Of a DNA stretch of 34,589 nt, positions 1,373-31,642 are shown in pieces. Source of the DNA: Schwartzia sp. (in: firmicutes) (GTDB lineage: Bacteria > Bacillota > Negativicutes > Selenomonadales > Selenomonadaceae); the NCBI GenBank assembly GCA_017444395.1, contig JAFSWT010000067.1, positions 1 through 34,589 on the forward strand, read 5' to 3'. The notes beneath the pieces were generated by a model that was given only the letters and a program-made list of their open reading frames with translations, was not told the DNA's origin and ran no database searches. Positions within the stretch are counted from its first letter, which is position 1; every line of letters starts with the position of its first letter. Made by a program: the position numbers and the translations under genes.

Positions 1373-2584
1373 ATGTTCAGTGAAAACCATGTCAAGCAGG
1401 GCGTGACGTTCCCGAAGGGATTCAAGGCGGCGGGCGTCAAGGCCGGAATCAAGAAGAGCGGCAATCTCGACCTGGCGGTCATCTATACGGAGCGGGCGGC
1501 GGCGGTGGCCGGCGTTTTTACCCAGAATCAGGTGGCGGCGGCGCCGGTCTATGTGTCGAAGGAGGTTGTCGCCGGTGGCAAGGCCCACGCGATAGCCGCC
1601 AACGCCGGTTGCGCCAATGCCTGCACCGGCCAAAAGGGCCTGGAGGACGCCCGGGCAATGGCGGCGCTGACCGCTCAGGCGGTGGGTTGCGCGGCCGGCG
1701 AGGTGCTGGTGGCATCCACCGGCGTCATCGGCGTCAATCTGCCGATGGACAAGATGAAGGCTGGCATCGAAAAGGCGGCGGCGGAGCTGTCGGAAACGGG
1801 CAGTGAAAACGCCGGCAACGCCATCGTCACCACCGATACCTATTCCAAAGCCGGGGCGACAGAGGTGGAGATCGGCGGCAAGAAAGTTCGCTTTGGCGTC
1901 ATCGCCAAGGGCTCCGGCATGATCCAGCCGAATATGGCTACGATGCTCTGCTTCATCACCACCGACTGCGCCATCGCCCGTCCGCTCCTGCAGCAGGCCC
2001 TGTCGGAAATCACCGAAGTGACCTTCAACATGATTTCCATTGACGGCGACATGAGCACCAACGACATGGTGGTGGTGCTGGCCAACGGCGCCGCCGGCAA
2101 CCCGGAAATCACCGCGAAAGGGCCGGACTACGATGTGTTTTATCAGACGCTGAAGGAGCTTTGTACCGGTATTGCCCGGAGGATTGCCGCCGACGGCGAG
2201 GGGGCCACGAAGTTCCTGACGATTGCGGTCAAAGGCGCCAAGTCTTTTGCCGATGCCAAGCAGGTCGCCATGAGCGTAGCGAAGTCGCCGCTGGTGAAGA
2301 CGGCGTTCTTTGGCCAGGACCCGAACTGGGGCCGCGTCATCTGCGCCGTGGGGTATGCCGGGGTGCCGATGGTGCCGGAAAAGACGGTGGTGAAATTCGG
2401 CGATATCCCGGTTTACGCGCATGGCGTCGGGGCGGAGTTCGATGAGGCGGCGCTGCGGCAGGTTATGGCGGCCCATGATATCGTTATCGCCATCGACCTG
2501 GGGCTGGGCGACGCCGATGCCACCGTCTGGTCCTGCGACTTCTCCTATGAGTATGTAAAGATCAACGGCGAGTACCACACCTGA
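1373..2584 (+). CDS. argJ: Bifunctional ornithine acetyltransferase / N-acetylglutamate synthase
   Basis: ArgJ moves the acetyl group from N-acetylornithine to glutamate, recycling acetate in the cyclic arginine pathway; many members can also acetylate glutamate from acetyl-CoA. The 403-residue chain contains the self-cleavage and catalytic motif in MIQPNMATML. Cleavage is expected before T190, giving alpha and beta chains, and this threonine is the nucleophile. The start is ATG 1373 with GGGAGG about nine bases upstream. No argE or argA is in the window, which fits a cyclic pathway that depends on ArgJ. Whether this copy is bifunctional or transferase-only cannot be read from the sequence. 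Confidence 0.96.
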   Translation: MFSENHVKQGVTFPKGFKAAGVKAGIKKSGNLDLAVIYTERAAAVAGVFTQNQVAAAPVYVSKEVVAGGKAHAIAANAGCANACTGQKGLEDARAMAALTAQAVGCAAGEVLVASTGVIGVNLPMDKMKAGIEKAAAELSETGSENAGNAIVTTDTYSKAGATEVEIGGKKVRFGVIAKGSGMIQPNMATMLCFITTDCAIARPLLQQALSEITEVTFNMISIDGDMSTNDMVVVLANGAAGNPEITAKGPDYDVFYQTLKELCTGIARRIAADGEGATKFLTIAVKGAKSFADAKQVAMSVAKSPLVKTAFFGQDPNWGRVICAVGYAGVPMVPEKTVVKFGDIPVYAHGVGAEFDEAALRQVMAAHDIVIAIDLGLGDADATVWSCDFSYEYVKINGEYHT

Positions 2585-2590
2585 TACTGA

Positions 2591-2714
2591 TTTTCGATAA
2601 GAAGATTCTTATCGAAAATACGCCTGCTACGCAGGCTACAGCCGCGCTTGCAGCGCGTCTGATGTCTCATACACTCGCTGTAAGAAATAAAATTTCTAAC
2701 AGCGAGTAGTATGA
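2591..2714. repeat. Block of four tandem hairpins between argJ and argB
   Basis: Nearly the whole argJ-argB gap is built of inverted repeats. Hairpin 1 pairs TTTTCGATAAGAA (2591-2603) with 2606-2618, perfect over 13 bases. Hairpin 2 is GCCTGC-TAC-GCAGGC (2622-2636). Hairpin 3 is CGCGCT-TGC-AGCGCG (2643-2657). Hairpin 4 pairs 2667-2688 with 2692-2714 around an AAA loop, with one mismatch and one unpaired base. None is followed directly by a T run, so these are not ordinary terminators. The block ends two bases before the argB ribosome-binding site. It may be a dispersed palindromic element or an mRNA processing or stability device. Confidence 0.85.
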
Positions 2715-2729: not shown

Positions 2730-3614
2730 ATGCAAATGCACAAGGCAACCGCCAATATTCTGGTGGATGCGCTGCCGTATATCCGGAAGTTCTACGGCAA
2801 GACAATGGTCATCAAGTACGGCGGCAACGCCATGTTGAGCGACGAGCTGAAGACGAAGGTCGTTCAGGATATCACGCTGATGAAATACATCGGCATCCAT
2901 CCGGTCATCGTTCACGGCGGCGGACCTGACATCACCGGTTTCCTGGAGCGGGTGGGCAAGAAGGCGGAGTTCGTGAGTGGCCTGCGGGTCACGGATCAGG
3001 AGACGATGGAGATCGTGGAGATGGTCCTCATCGGCAAGGTCAATTCCGAGATCGTGAACCGCCTCAACCAGTGCGGCGGACAGGCCATCGGCCTTTCCGG
3101 CAAAGACGCGGGACTCATCCGGGCAACGAAGAAACTGGCCGAGATTCACAAGGACGGCCGGGTGGAAAAGGCTGATATCGGCTATGTGGGCGAGGTAAAG
3201 GAAATCAACGCCCAGGCCCTGAATGATCTACTGGAAAAGGGGTATATCCCGGTGGTGGCCCCGGTGGGGGTCGGGGATGAGGGCGAGAGTTACAACATCA
3301 ACGCCGATTACGTCGCCGCCGAGGTGGCGGGGGCACTTCGGGCCGAGAAACTGCTGCTGTTGACCGATGTCGAGGGCATCTATAAGGATTACGAGGATAA
3401 AAGCTCGTTCCTCTCGTCGCTGACGGAGACCGAAGCTCTGGCCTACATCGACGACGGCACAATCTCCGGCGGCATGATTCCAAAGGTGGAGGCGTGCCTT
3501 ACCGCGCTGACGAAGGGAGCGAAGAAGACCTCCATCATCGACGGCCGCCTGCCGCATTCGCTACTGTTGGAGCTTTTCACTTCTCAGGGCATCGGAACGG
3601 AAATCGTGAGATAA
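2730..3614 (+). CDS. argB: Acetylglutamate kinase, arginine-sensitive type
   Basis: ArgB phosphorylates N-acetylglutamate with ATP, the second step of arginine synthesis and usually the controlled one. The 294-residue protein has the amino-acid-kinase signature: KYGGNAM with K29, and the substrate loop VHGGGPD near residues 61-67. An N-terminal helix of about 20 residues (through ALPYIRKFYGK) precedes the kinase core. This extension is found in hexameric, arginine-inhibited enzymes and is missing from the shorter E. coli type, so feedback inhibition by arginine is likely. AGGAGG at 2716-2721 supports ATG 2730. The hairpin block sits directly upstream; argD follows after 12 bases. Confidence 0.97.
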   Translation: MQMHKATANILVDALPYIRKFYGKTMVIKYGGNAMLSDELKTKVVQDITLMKYIGIHPVIVHGGGPDITGFLERVGKKAEFVSGLRVTDQETMEIVEMVLIGKVNSEIVNRLNQCGGQAIGLSGKDAGLIRATKKLAEIHKDGRVEKADIGYVGEVKEINAQALNDLLEKGYIPVVAPVGVGDEGESYNINADYVAAEVAGALRAEKLLLLTDVEGIYKDYEDKSSFLSSLTETEALAYIDDGTISGGMIPKVEACLTALTKGAKKTSIIDGRLPHSLLLELFTSQGIGTEIVR

Positions 3615-24206: not shown

Positions 24207-24270
24207 ATCCTTATGGTTTAAAGAGTAAAGTCCGGGCGATGAACACGGCAGCGTGAGGAAGCGGGGAGTT

Positions 24271-24543
24271 ATGGATTATATTGAAGCAATCAATCAGGCG
24301 GGCATGAACTGCCTGATGGCGGAGAATGAATTGTCGATGCACCGGCTGATGGGGGGCCTCGGCACGAGGAAGATGAAAGCGGCGAAAGAGACGCACGAGG
24401 CGGCGATGAAGGCGCTTTTCGATGTGTTGCGCGCCAGCGGCCGCACGGTGGAGGAGTTGGAGACGCTCCGGGATGAGAATGGGAATTCGCCGTTCACTTA
24501 CGGCATTCTGGAGATGCTGCGACGGGATTTTGGGAAATACTGA
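24271..24543 (+). CDS. Small helical protein preceding cysS
   Basis: I do not recognise this 90-residue protein. It looks all-helical, with a methionine-rich N-terminus (NCLMAENELSMHRLMGGL), a central charged helix (KAAKETHEAAMKALFDVL) and a C-terminal helix ending RRDFGKY. There is no signal peptide. I choose ATG 24271, preceded by AGGAAG and GGGGAG, over GTG 24253, six codons up. It ends 18 bases before cysS on the same strand and so is probably the first gene of that operon. Coding-like composition and position make it likely real. Confidence 0.7.
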   Translation: MDYIEAINQAGMNCLMAENELSMHRLMGGLGTRKMKAAKETHEAAMKALFDVLRASGRTVEELETLRDENGNSPFTYGILEMLRRDFGKY

Positions 24544-24561
24544 TTGGGAGAGGACAGAATA

Positions 24562-25992
24562 ATGGCAAGACAGATTACCGTCTATAATACCATGACGCGG
24601 CGAAAGGAGACGTTCCGTCCGCTGGAAGAGGGGAAAGCCGGCATTTACGTCTGCGGTGTGACGCCTTACAACGATCCGCATATCGGCAATGCCAGGCCCT
24701 TCGTGATCTGGGACGTAATCCGGCGTTTCTTCAAGAAATGCGGCTATGAGGTGCGATATATCCAGAACTTCACCGACGTGGACGACAAGATCATCAAGGT
24801 GTCCCATGAGCAGGGCTGTACCTGGAAGGAGGTTGCCGAAAAGTATATAGCAGCGTATTTCACGGCTATGGATGCCCTTAACGTGCGCCGGGCCGATGTC
24901 TATCCGCGGGTATCGGAGACGATTCCCGAGATCATCGGCATGGTACAGGGCCTCATCGACAAGGGGTACGCTTACGAGTTGGAGGGCGACGTCTACTACA
25001 GTGTTGAGAGCTTTCCCAACTACGGCTGCCTCAGCGGGCGTAGCCTGGATGATATGATGGCCGGGGCCCGGGTGGAGGTGGATGAGCGCAAGCGGAATCC
25101 GATGGATTTTGCCCTCTGGAAAGCCGCGAAACCGGGAGAGCCGTTCTGGGAGAGCCCCTGGGGTAAGGGACGGCCCGGCTGGCATATCGAGTGTTCTGCC
25201 ATGTCGCTCAAGTATCTCGGGGAGAGTTTTGATTTTCACGGCGGTGGCAGCGATCTCATCTTCCCGCACCATGAGAATGAAATTGCCCAGTCCCGTGCCT
25301 TTTGCGGCCGCGCCGATTCCTTTGCCCGCTACTGGGTGCACAACGGTTTCATCACCATCCGCGAGGAGAAGATGAGCAAGTCGAAGAACAACTTCCTGAC
25401 GGTGACAGATATCCTGAAGGAGTATTCCGGCGAGGTGGTGCGGTTCTTCATCCTCCAGACGCATTATCGAAGCCCGCTGGATTTCAGCGACGAGCGGCTG
25501 CGGGATGCCCGGGCGGGATTGTCAAGGCTTTCGGCGGCAAAGGAGAATCTGGCGGCGCTGGCGAAGCGGGACGGGAGTTCCGATTCCGCGAAGGCACTGG
25601 CGGAAAAACTGGCGGCCCTGCGGGAAGATTTCTACACGGCGATGGCGGATGATTTCAATACAGCGCTGGCCGCCAGCTATCTGTTTGCGGCGGCGCGAGA
25701 CATCAACGCCTATTACAACGAGGTGATGAACCGCGGCCTGGACTTTGACGCGGCAAATTTCGCGGCAGTCCGGGCGGATTTTGACGACATGGCGGAAATC
25801 CTCGGCATTCTGGAGCAGACGGCAGCGGCCGGCACCGATGAAGACGCGGCCATCGACGCGCTGGTGGAGGAACGGCTGGCGGCCCGCAAGGCGAAGGACT
25901 GGGCCCGGGCGGACGCGATTCGGGACGAGCTCAAGGCGCGGGGTATCCTGCTGGAGGACTCAGCGGCGGGCACCCGGTGGAAACGGGCATGA
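24562..25992 (+). CDS. cysS: Cysteinyl-tRNA synthetase
   Basis: CysS charges tRNA-Cys with cysteine. The 476-residue class I synthetase has the HIGH-type motif PHIGN (39-43), KMSKS (270-274) and four zinc ligands that select cysteine: C31, C211, H236 and E240. The C-terminal helical and anticodon-binding parts are complete. ATG 24562, with GAGAGGA seven bases upstream, is preferred over the in-frame TTG 24544. The stop overlaps the mrnC start (ATGA). cysS-mrnC-rlmB-rae1 order is a long-conserved Firmicutes arrangement. Confidence 0.98.
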   Translation: MARQITVYNTMTRRKETFRPLEEGKAGIYVCGVTPYNDPHIGNARPFVIWDVIRRFFKKCGYEVRYIQNFTDVDDKIIKVSHEQGCTWKEVAEKYIAAYFTAMDALNVRRADVYPRVSETIPEIIGMVQGLIDKGYAYELEGDVYYSVESFPNYGCLSGRSLDDMMAGARVEVDERKRNPMDFALWKAAKPGEPFWESPWGKGRPGWHIECSAMSLKYLGESFDFHGGGSDLIFPHHENEIAQSRAFCGRADSFARYWVHNGFITIREEKMSKSKNNFLTVTDILKEYSGEVVRFFILQTHYRSPLDFSDERLRDARAGLSRLSAAKENLAALAKRDGSSDSAKALAEKLAALREDFYTAMADDFNTALAASYLFAAARDINAYYNEVMNRGLDFDAANFAAVRADFDDMAEILGILEQTAAAGTDEDAAIDALVEERLAARKAKDWARADAIRDELKARGILLEDSAAGTRWKRA

Positions 25993-28131: not shown

Positions 28132-28665
28132 ATGGCGGAAAAACGGGAGCATTACATCGTGGACGGCTATAACGTCATCCACGCCTGGCCGGAACTTCGG
28201 GGACTGGCAGCGGAGGAACTGGCCGAAGCGCGGGACCGTTTGGTGCACCGGATGGCGGAATTCGGTGCTTACGAGGGCTATGACATGACCATCGTATTCG
28301 ATGCGTTGTTCACTAACGACGAAGCCCGTGAGGATAAGCGCGATGCGCATCTTTCCGTCATCTACACGGCGGCGGGAGAGACGGCGGACAGTTATATCGA
28401 GCGGCTGGCCTACGAATCAGTCCGGGCGGGGCGCGAGGTCCATGTGGTCACTTCCGACGGCGCCGAGCAGACGGTTATTTTGGGGGCGGGCGCCTATCGC
28501 CTGCCGCCGCGGGAACTATGGCGGCGGGTGAGGAAATGCCGGGAAAAGATGCGGCGCGAGTACCTGTTTCCCTATGCCGGGCCCATCGCCCGCAGTGCGG
28601 TTTCCGACCGCCTCGACCGTGACACGGCCGCGCGGCTCGACCAGTGGCGTCGCCGGCGCGATTGA
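28132..28665 (+). CDS. rae1: Rae1/YacP NYN-domain ribonuclease
   Basis: Rae1 (YacP) enters the ribosomal A site and cuts certain mRNAs during translation in Bacillus. The 177-residue protein is a PIN/NYN-domain nuclease: YIVDGYNVIHAW with D11 and N14, an acidic stretch in IVFDALF, and TAAGETADSYIERLA with the third acidic cluster. These would bind the metal. ATG 28132, preceded by GGGGGAG and GAGAGGG, is used; the open frame reaches back to the rlmB stop but has no better site. It follows rlmB by 30 bases. The sigH gene that follows in Bacillus is replaced here by an M16 protease gene. Confidence 0.92.
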   Translation: MAEKREHYIVDGYNVIHAWPELRGLAAEELAEARDRLVHRMAEFGAYEGYDMTIVFDALFTNDEAREDKRDAHLSVIYTAAGETADSYIERLAYESVRAGREVHVVTSDGAEQTVILGAGAYRLPPRELWRRVRKCREKMRREYLFPYAGPIARSAVSDRLDRDTAARLDQWRRRRD

Positions 28666-28726
28666 TGAAAAATGCAAAGACAGCGATTGCCGATTAACCA
28701 ATATACGAATGAAAAGAGGGTTTCCA

Positions 28727-31642
28727 ATGAAAGTTAACGATGTGATTCATGGATTTCGTCTGAAGAAAACGCGCCCGATCCCGGAGGTGGACTCGGTTTC
28801 CTTCGAGTTCCTCCACGAGAAAAGCGGGGCGCGTCTCTTTTATTTGCAGAACGACGACGACAACAAGGTGTTTTTCATCGGCTTCCGTACGCCGCCATCG
28901 GACGATACCGGCGTGCCGCATATCATCGAGCATTCTGTCCTTTGCGGTTCGCGGAAATTTCCGCTGAAAGAACCCTTTGTGGAGCTGGTGAAAGGCTCGC
29001 TCAACACCTTCCTGAATGCCATGACCTATCCCGACAAGACCGTCTATCCGGTGGCCAGCCGCAATGACAAGGATTTCCAGAATCTCATGGACGTTTACCT
29101 TGACGCGGTGTTTTACCCGGTCCTTCATCAGAAGCCGGAGATCCTGATGCAGGAGGGCTGGCATTACGAGGTGGAGTCGCCGGAACAGCCGCTCCAATAC
29201 AGCGGTGTCGTCTATAACGAAATGAAGGGGGCGACCTCGTCACCGGAGGATCTTTTGGAGACGGCGGTTCTGAAATCCCTGTACCCGGATACCACCTACC
29301 ATTTTGAGTCCGGCGGCAATCCGGAGCGCATCCCGGACTTGACGATGGAGAAATTCACTGGCTTCCACAAGAAATACTACCATCCTTCCAATAGCTATAT
29401 CTATCTCTATGGCGATCTGGATATTGAGGAGAAGCTGGCTTTCCTGGACCAGGCGTATCTTTCGGCGTTCAGTAAGGCCAATGTCGATTCCACGATTGAC
29501 AATCAGAAACCCTTCGACGGTTTGCGGCGGATCAGAGAACGGTATCCTGTCGGCGCTGACGAAGATGAAAAGGGCAAGACCTATCTGAGCTGGAATTTGG
29601 TCGTCGATGACGGTGGGGAGCAGTTGACGAGAGTGGCCCTGGCTGTCCTGGTACACGCGCTCTTTACCACGGATGCGGCCCCGGTGCGCCAGGCACTGCT
29701 TGACGCCGGAATCGGCAAGGACATGATGGCGTTTTTGGAAAACGATCTCTGCCAGCCGCATTTTTCCGTCGAGGTGACGAACGCCGAGGCGGAGGACGAG
29801 GACCGGTTCCATGAGGTATGCCGAGGCACGTTGGAAAAACTTGCGAATCAGGGCATTGACCAGATGCTTTTGGAAGCGTCGCTCAATATCATGGAATTCA
29901 AGCTGCGGGAGGCGGATTTCAATCAGACACCGAAAGGGCTGGTTTATGGCCTGGGCGTCATGAGCCGGTGGCTCTATGACCGGGATCCCGCGGAAGCGCT
30001 TTTTTACGAGGATATTTTGAAGACCCTGCGGGAAGGGTTGGACAATGGCTTCTATGAGAAGGTGCTGCGGCAGTTCCTGCTGGAAAATCCGCACCAGACG
30101 CTGGTGACGATGGTGCCTGACCGGACGATGGCGGCGGCCCGGGAGGCGGAGACGGAGAAAAGACTGGCGGCGAAGAAGGCGGCTATGACGCCGGCGGAGG
30201 TCGAAGAAGTCGTGACGATGACCGCCCGGCTCAAGGAGATGCAGGCCGCGCCGGACCGTCCCGAGGATTTGGCGAAAATTCCCCTGCTGGCGCTTTCGGA
30301 TATCAGGAGAGAGGCGGAAGAATTGCCGCTGGAGGAGCGCAGCCTGGCGGGGCAGACGATTCTCTACAGCGATATTTCCACGCACGGCATCGCCTATCTC
30401 AACCTGTACTTCGACGCCGACGTGCTGACGCCGGAGGAGCAGCTCTACGCGTATTTCCTTTGCGATATTTTGGGGGCCGTGGATACGGATCGTCATTCCT
30501 ACAGTGAACTGACGACGTTGAAGAACCTTCATACCGGTGGCATCAGTTTCGACCTCGGGACGCAGTCCCAATACAAGGACGAAACGATTTGGCACGCCAA
30601 GGGCGTCATCAAGGCCCGGGTTCTGGTCCGTAAAGCCGGGGAACTGTGTGCCCTCCTGGCAGAGATCCTGACCGCTTCGCAATTCACGGATCGGAAACGG
30701 ATGAAGGAATTGACGGATCAGTGCCTGGCCGGTTGCGAACGGGAAATCATGAACCTGCCCCAGCAGGTCATGGCCAGACGGTTGGGCTCCTATATCAGTC
30801 CCGCTGCCCGGTTTGATGCCCGGGGCGACCTGCCGTATTACGACTTTATCAAGGAATTGAGTCGCCGGTTTGACGAGCAGATCGAAGCGGCGAGCGAAAA
30901 GCTCACGGCGGTGATGGGCAAGTTGTTCCGCCGTCAGGGGCTGGTTCTGGGATTGACCACGGCGGCAGCGGACTATGAGGCGGTAGCCGGACCGCTGACG
31001 GACTTTTTGACTGCGCTTCCGGAAACCGAATGGCCGGCGGTGGCGAAGCCGGTGGCTTATACGAAAAACGAGGGTCTGGCCACTTCCAGCCGGGTGCAAT
31101 ACGTGGGCAAGGGAGCCAATTTCCGTCAGCTGGGCTTTCCGCTGACCGGCTCCATGCGGGTGCTGGAGACCATCATGCGCTATGGCTATCTTTGGACGAA
31201 GGTGCGCGTCCAGGGCGGTGCCTATGGCGCATCGGCCCAGTTCACCAACGATGGCCGGATGCTCTTTACCTCCTATCGTGATCCGAATCTCGCTGAGACG
31301 CTGGCGGTTTATGACCAGGTGCCGGAGTATCTGGCAGGCTTTGACGCCTCTGAGCGGGAAATGACGAAGTATATCATCGGCACGATGAGCGTTCTGGATA
31401 TGCCGCTGACGCCGCAGATGAAAGGCAGCATCGCCCTCATCCGGCATATGTGCGGCATTACCTTAGCGGACCGTCAGCGGCTCCGGGACGAAATCCTGTC
31501 CACCGGGGTTAAAGAAATCCGGGCGCTGGCCGAGGTCGTTGCCGCCGGGCTTCGAGAGGATACATTCTGCGTCTTTGGCAATGAGGAAAAGCTGCGGGAG
31601 AACGCCGGGCGCTTCAGCCACATCCTTCAGGTCATGGAATGA
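28727..31642 (+). CDS. M16C zinc metallopeptidase, presequence-protease type
   Basis: This large clamshell protease (971 residues) belongs to family M16C, with PreP and falcilysin, which degrade peptides of intermediate size. The inverted zinc motif HIIEH gives H65, catalytic E68 and H69; the third ligand is E165 in VVYNEMKGA. The C-terminal half supplies the substrate-clamping R827 and Y833 in RVQGGAYG. There is no signal peptide, so a cytoplasmic peptide-clearing role is likely. ATG 28727 is chosen with AGAGGG upstream; the frame stays open into the rae1 gene but has no usable site there. The 61-base gap to rae1 lacks a terminator. Confidence 0.94.
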   Translation: MKVNDVIHGFRLKKTRPIPEVDSVSFEFLHEKSGARLFYLQNDDDNKVFFIGFRTPPSDDTGVPHIIEHSVLCGSRKFPLKEPFVELVKGSLNTFLNAMTYPDKTVYPVASRNDKDFQNLMDVYLDAVFYPVLHQKPEILMQEGWHYEVESPEQPLQYSGVVYNEMKGATSSPEDLLETAVLKSLYPDTTYHFESGGNPERIPDLTMEKFTGFHKKYYHPSNSYIYLYGDLDIEEKLAFLDQAYLSAFSKANVDSTIDNQKPFDGLRRIRERYPVGADEDEKGKTYLSWNLVVDDGGEQLTRVALAVLVHALFTTDAAPVRQALLDAGIGKDMMAFLENDLCQPHFSVEVTNAEAEDEDRFHEVCRGTLEKLANQGIDQMLLEASLNIMEFKLREADFNQTPKGLVYGLGVMSRWLYDRDPAEALFYEDILKTLREGLDNGFYEKVLRQFLLENPHQTLVTMVPDRTMAAAREAETEKRLAAKKAAMTPAEVEEVVTMTARLKEMQAAPDRPEDLAKIPLLALSDIRREAEELPLEERSLAGQTILYSDISTHGIAYLNLYFDADVLTPEEQLYAYFLCDILGAVDTDRHSYSELTTLKNLHTGGISFDLGTQSQYKDETIWHAKGVIKARVLVRKAGELCALLAEILTASQFTDRKRMKELTDQCLAGCEREIMNLPQQVMARRLGSYISPAARFDARGDLPYYDFIKELSRRFDEQIEAASEKLTAVMGKLFRRQGLVLGLTTAAADYEAVAGPLTDFLTALPETEWPAVAKPVAYTKNEGLATSSRVQYVGKGANFRQLGFPLTGSMRVLETIMRYGYLWTKVRVQGGAYGASAQFTNDGRMLFTSYRDPNLAETLAVYDQVPEYLAGFDASEREMTKYIIGTMSVLDMPLTPQMKGSIALIRHMCGITLADRQRLRDEILSTGVKEIRALAEVVAAGLREDTFCVFGNEEKLRENAGRFSHILQVME

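Follow-up and report, generated by a model that had tools for sequence, protein, structure and literature searches.

The window, by which we mean the whole stretch of 34,589 nucleotides analysed here, carries argJ (1373–2584, + strand, NCBIfam ArgJ) followed by argB (2730–3614, + strand, NCBIfam argB), with a gap of 145 nt between them. Of this gap, 127 nt (2585–2711, +) are taken up by a sequence running from TACTG to TAGTA, which lies between the argJ stop codon, TGA at 2582–2584 (+), and a second TGA at 2712–2714 (+); a spacer with the argB ribosome-binding site (2715–2729, +) completes it. Elsewhere in the window, open reading frames of 1022 aa (28574–31642, +) and 417 aa (24211–25464, −) have no NCBIfam match at 1e-10.

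An earlier note on this DNA had described four tandem hairpins between argJ and argB, and inverted repeats and folding both confirm them. Hairpin 1 (2590–2619, +), left terminal and A/T-rich, is a perfect inverted repeat of 14 bp (2590–2603/2606–2619) whose letters vary among the copies described below. Hairpin 2 (2622–2636, +) is a repeat of 6 bp (2622–2627/2631–2636), GCCTGC/GCAGGC here and GCGTGC/GCACGC in other copies of the alignment, while hairpin 3 (2639–2661, +) is G/C-rich and paired at 9 of 10 positions (2639–2648/2652–2661); hairpins 1 and 3 are also evident from the fold and from covariation. Hairpin 4, the right terminal one, is paired at 15 of 16 positions (2673–2688/2692–2707) and extended by 2667–2672/2709–2714; together with the linker TCTCAT it spans 2665–2714 (+), the part matched by our hairpin-4 model, R1. 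It is built of a variable outer stem and GTAA/TAAC with an A.A mismatch, followed by TAGTA and TGA. The block thus stands as first described, with its limits corrected to 2585–2711 plus the flanking TGA at 2582–2584 and 2712–2714.

The region 2580–2725 folds at −68.2 kcal/mol, whereas shuffled versions average −33.4 (sd 3.65; z −9.5) and none of 200 folds as low. In raw energy the block is unexceptional: owing to the GC content, 60% in the window against 43% in the element, 39 of 1723 sliding 132-nt windows of the sequence reach the same energy or a lower one. Elsewhere in the arg cluster the gaps fold weakly (−0.7, −1.3, −12.2 and −15.9 kcal/mol), bearing out the earlier remark that they hold no comparable structure. 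It also holds that no T run follows any stem on the + strand, and we rejected a transcription terminator on this ground; the − strand has a weak terminator-like match at hairpin 2. A known RNA family was likewise rejected, there being no Rfam match at the gathering score and a sole weak match with E 0.26, and a tRNA-related sequence was tried and rejected.

The origin of the block is apparent from the other genome of the genus (G001), whose ArgB is 91% identical to that of the window. There the argB leader directly follows the argJ stop codon (...ACC TGA CAGGAGGCCGAAGGA ATG), while the site in the window reads ...ACC TGA [127 bp] TGA CAGGAGGCGAAAAGA ATG, with a near-identical spacer before argB; the insertion therefore comprises 127 bp and brought with it a second copy of the argJ stop codon, TGA. 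The two TGA copies at 2582–2584 and 2712–2714 are accordingly the halves of a 3-bp target duplication. Because the insertion hit the stop codon itself, argJ kept its stop and argB its ribosome-binding site.

The same sequence is dispersed through the window's own genome (2.29 Mb in 163 contigs, 79% complete). A DNA search with 2580–2730 gave 26 matches with E < 1e-5, which reduce to 23 distinct loci including the window once the reverse self-match is removed and split matches are joined, and a further two (C151:593 and C153:3768) come from the hairpin model, so that the family occupies at least 25 loci. These are spread over different contigs and both strands. Copies of the family with both ends readable measure 102–176 bp; they are short, non-coding and numerous, as expected of miniature inverted-repeat transposable elements (MITEs). 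This is the outcome that the earlier note had set as the sign of a dispersed element when it suggested comparing the block with the rest of the genome. We conclude that the block is very probably a copy of a non-autonomous, MITE-like mobile element family of rumen Selenomonadaceae. The earlier suggestion that a REP/MITE-like dispersed element had landed in the operon is therefore upheld by the copies, the empty site and the target duplications, but not as regards REPs in the strict sense, since there is no conserved GTAG, TNA is duplicated and 9 of the 11 carriers searched have no Y1 transposase.

The same note had offered as its other explanation an RNA structure setting the ratio of ArgCJ to ArgB, and a cis-acting regulator of argB, kept for setting the ArgJ:ArgB ratio or for processing of the operon mRNA, would indeed account for a very stable folded spacer within an operon, the long stems of which could serve as RNase III substrates. 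As the origin of the block we regard this as highly improbable. We examined 30 argB loci of relatives, of which 27 (including the window's) have ArgJ just upstream; the terminal-hairpin model matches the window's locus and none of the other 29, the opposite of the conservation at argB alone that had been proposed as the mark of a regulator. The 26 other argJ–argB gaps measure 15–118 nt and are without the element, some having short inverted repeats of their own, and G001 is without the insertion. In addition, the same sequence stands beside many other genes in both orientations, and the Rfam search described above gave nothing for such a regulator. A side effect of the element on ArgB expression is possible: the insertion added 130 nt, mostly structured, to a spacing that is 15 nt in G001, which may have cost argJ–argB translational coupling or exposed a stem to cleavage.

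Beyond the window's genome, model R1 has matches in 21 of 189 genomes of the order and in 21 of 380 of the class; since both scans give 21 genomes, there is no R1 match outside the family Selenomonadaceae, in which 8 of 30 genera are carriers. Per-genome counts from a preceding scan with the model are inflated, as palindromes match the other strand too; the scan of the order is the cleaner count and scores at most 31 candidates per genome. The genome with the empty site, G001, gave zero matches by DNA search and three by R1, so the family is present there too. Scanning the named genome collection for an exact pattern returned 41 stretches, 40 of them titled Schwartzia, Selenomonadaceae or Selenomonadales and many from the rumen. 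The sole non-Selenomonadales record is a full copy with TTA repeats (L213, JAFUYB010000096.1) on a contig titled Lachnospiraceae, possibly a case of transfer, mis-binning or mislabelling. Cargo of a phage or plasmid was rejected as an explanation, given zero viral contigs and no plasmid or phage match.

The target duplication is general in the family. Among 95 distinct copies, the left end (TNA-TAC plus stem) was recognised in 65, and 60 had TNA on both sides, the other 35 being left out of the count because an end was not recognised. The flanking TNA are identical in 54 of these 60 copies (18 TAA, 18 TGA, 14 TCA and 4 TTA), compared to 17.6 expected by independence, and unequal in 6; these six and the 35 uncounted copies are points against the mobile-element account. 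Three of the 60 (L144, L183 and L186) represent one orthologous insertion. The end-finder used for this count made no use of repeat equality, whereas that of a 42-copy survey favoured equal repeats. Of 59 copies, 54 have a pyrimidine (C or T) directly before the left TNA, and farther upstream T or A is preferred; the right side shows no matching preference, so that the insertion target is asymmetric. In this account every element opens with TACTA, closes with TAGTA and comprises one to several hairpins, and it inserts at (Y)TNA, duplicating the three bases TNA.

Gene calls around the copies relied on codon scores trained on seven window genes and are crude in relatives. On these calls, 41 of 65 copies lie between co-directional genes (20 sense, 21 antisense), nine between convergent and three between divergent genes, 12 have an unclear neighbour, and none lies within a called gene. 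There is no orientation preference, which argues against a strand-specific RNA function. As at argJ, the duplicated TNA doubles as the stop codon of a neighbouring gene in 21 of the 65 (a raw count). Such frequent insertion on stop codons suggests how the elements spread through operons without breaking genes, and the hairpins would be tolerated in mRNA between genes.

The arms of the hairpins covary. Among 42 copies examined, we aligned the 26 that have all four hairpins, leaving out 16; the copies had been picked by DNA similarity and were aligned without structure. Standard pairs make up 97.6% of 831 cells in this alignment, and two-sided changes occur in 16 of the 32 pairs, with 106 two-sided cells against 12 one-sided, a result reached in 0 of 500 shuffles; pairing falls to 30–40% when the partner is slid by 1–3 columns. 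In a separate alignment of hairpin 4 (30 rows, without L008, the end of which is repeated), 99.0% of 390 cells are paired and 61 changes are two-sided. This hairpin consists of a freely varying outer stem and an inner stem, between which GTAA/TAAC with its A.A mismatch is kept in nearly all 30 copies. What the two ends of the element have in common is TACTA/TAGTA, so that terminal inverted repeats are present but, at five bases, short for a MITE. It is the fold of the ends, more than their sequence, that the family preserves.

We propose that the elements are moved by an enzyme acting in trans, which, given the covariation of the arms, would recognise the ends at least partly by folded shape. 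Covariation could also arise with arm pairing being irrelevant to movement, through correction of one arm from the other by template switching in quasi-palindromes, which would produce just such an excess of two-sided over one-sided changes with few G-U pairs. We think this rather unlikely, as correction would erase the A.A mismatch that persists in hairpin 4, and as the orthologous copies L144 and L186 differ, by eye, by nine single-base changes without compensation.

Such fixed copies bear on the role of pairing in the host as well. A second common insertion, an old one shared by both species of the genus, is represented by L121 (G000:C153, in the window's own genome) and L119 (G001:C8), both flanks of which match at 89–92%. 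Their neighbours are presumably rpsP and khpA, to judge by eye, with the insertion at the stop codon of the rpsP-like gene. L121 carries an extra module and L119 does not. Hairpin 1 is quite different in the two copies, and hairpin 4 shows one compensated pair (CCTTG/CAAGG versus CCCTG/CAGGG), which also fits selection for structure at a fixed site and is a point against the mobile-element account. Because fixed copies drift, pairing seems to matter for the element's movement and not for host function, as judged from the sequences of these few loci.

Among the enzymes that might move the family, an IS5-group (IS1031-like) DDE transposase is suggested by the 3-bp TNA duplication, as such duplications are known for IS1031, and the equal TNA repeats counted above agree with this rule of the family. 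We nevertheless consider it unlikely that these are MITEs of such a transposase. Ends that share five bases while their arms vary are unlike a protein-binding terminal inverted repeat, and the family is without the extended terminal inverted repeat of IS1031-type elements. PF13586 is present in 0 of 21 carriers and PF13359 in two of 21, with matches almost only in G121, and none of 15 PF01609 loci has its gene between paired TNATACT ends. The same was true of the genes at 13 PF00665 (rve) loci. Neither an autonomous copy nor a transposase between such ends turned up in these draft genomes for the enzyme families covered, and 0.95 Mb of fetched loci yielded no longer element bearing them. This absence is a point against the mobile-element account, but weak evidence, because multi-copy transposons, IS among them, are easily lost from draft metagenome assemblies.

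A second alternative is a REP-like element mobilised by a tyrosine transposase of the IS200/IS605 type (RAYT), an enzyme that recognises hairpins in single-stranded DNA, with which the imperfect hairpins, the covariation of their arms and the conserved mismatch adjoining a short conserved foot would all agree. This appears quite improbable to us, since the Y1_Tnp domain (PF01797) was found in two of 11 carriers searched and is absent from the window's genome (G000, 79% complete) as well as from G133 and G135, both about 100% complete. There is also no conserved GTAG: the foot is TAGTA, with a varying base before it, and the CGTC that most copies have sits in the inner linker, away from the ends. 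Enzymes of this class are not known to make a 3-bp target duplication, which counts against them here.

A more tentative proposal, which we put forward as doubtful, is an uncharacterised transposition system. It would read the ends by folded shape (a TACTA foot, a stem of any sequence and a fixed A.A mismatch between GTAA and TAAC) and yet make 3-base staggered cuts in a duplex target at YTNA, and single hairpins of 38–43 bp (L020, L049, L140) could be its minimal mobile unit, from which the longer arrays would have been built.

We found no description of the family in the open-licence literature on Selenomonadaceae or Negativicutes repeats, MITEs and IS1031/TNA, and it is apparently undescribed. 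Elements of this general kind are covered by a review of bacterial MITEs (PMC10969869). Compared by description only, the family resembles bcr1–bcr3 of Bacillus cereus, short MITE-like intergenic elements in untranslated regions and inside operons (PMC3446304), with a difference in host group. The BOX repeats of Streptococcus pneumoniae, modular repeats with end modules, a variable interior and predicted stem-loops (PMC3049150), are alike in all these respects, again compared by description only, whereas the present family shows covarying end hairpins and, backed by an empty site, a TNA duplication. REPs, small palindromes with an unpaired foot, often arrayed and associated with RAYT transposases (PMC3733652), are 20–40 bp long against 127 bp here, and differ in the target duplication, the lack of a conserved GTAG and the absence of Y1 in most carriers. 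Unlike ordinary IS-derived MITEs, the family combines a five-base inverted repeat with covarying ends. The analysis settles the content of the arg operon gap and defines a family with exact ends, a target rule and a host range. A target duplication together with ends conserved in shape and variable in sequence fits neither the usual DDE-type MITE nor the usual REP/RAYT pair, and the mover is therefore worth finding.

The interior of the element is modular. Besides the single-hairpin copies, of 38 bp (L020) and 43 bp (L049 and L140), there are two-hairpin copies of 102 bp (L045 and L048) and copies with a different hairpin 2 (L032, L033 and L042), and in four cases (C134, C142, C76 and C151:593) an extra module of about 50 to 100 bp lies between hairpins 3 and 4. 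In L080, L081, L082, L185 and L192, GCCTGTGCCC...GGGTATAA stands in place of the hairpin-4 GTAA, forming a small extra hairpin at the conserved mismatch. One further copy, L085, holds within the loop of its hairpin 1 an unrelated miniature element of 457 bp (L085:451-907, equivalent to G000:C126:2450-2906), which has inverted ends of its own (GGCTCAATCA.../...TGATTGAACC) and is flanked by an 8-bp duplication, GAATTTTA.
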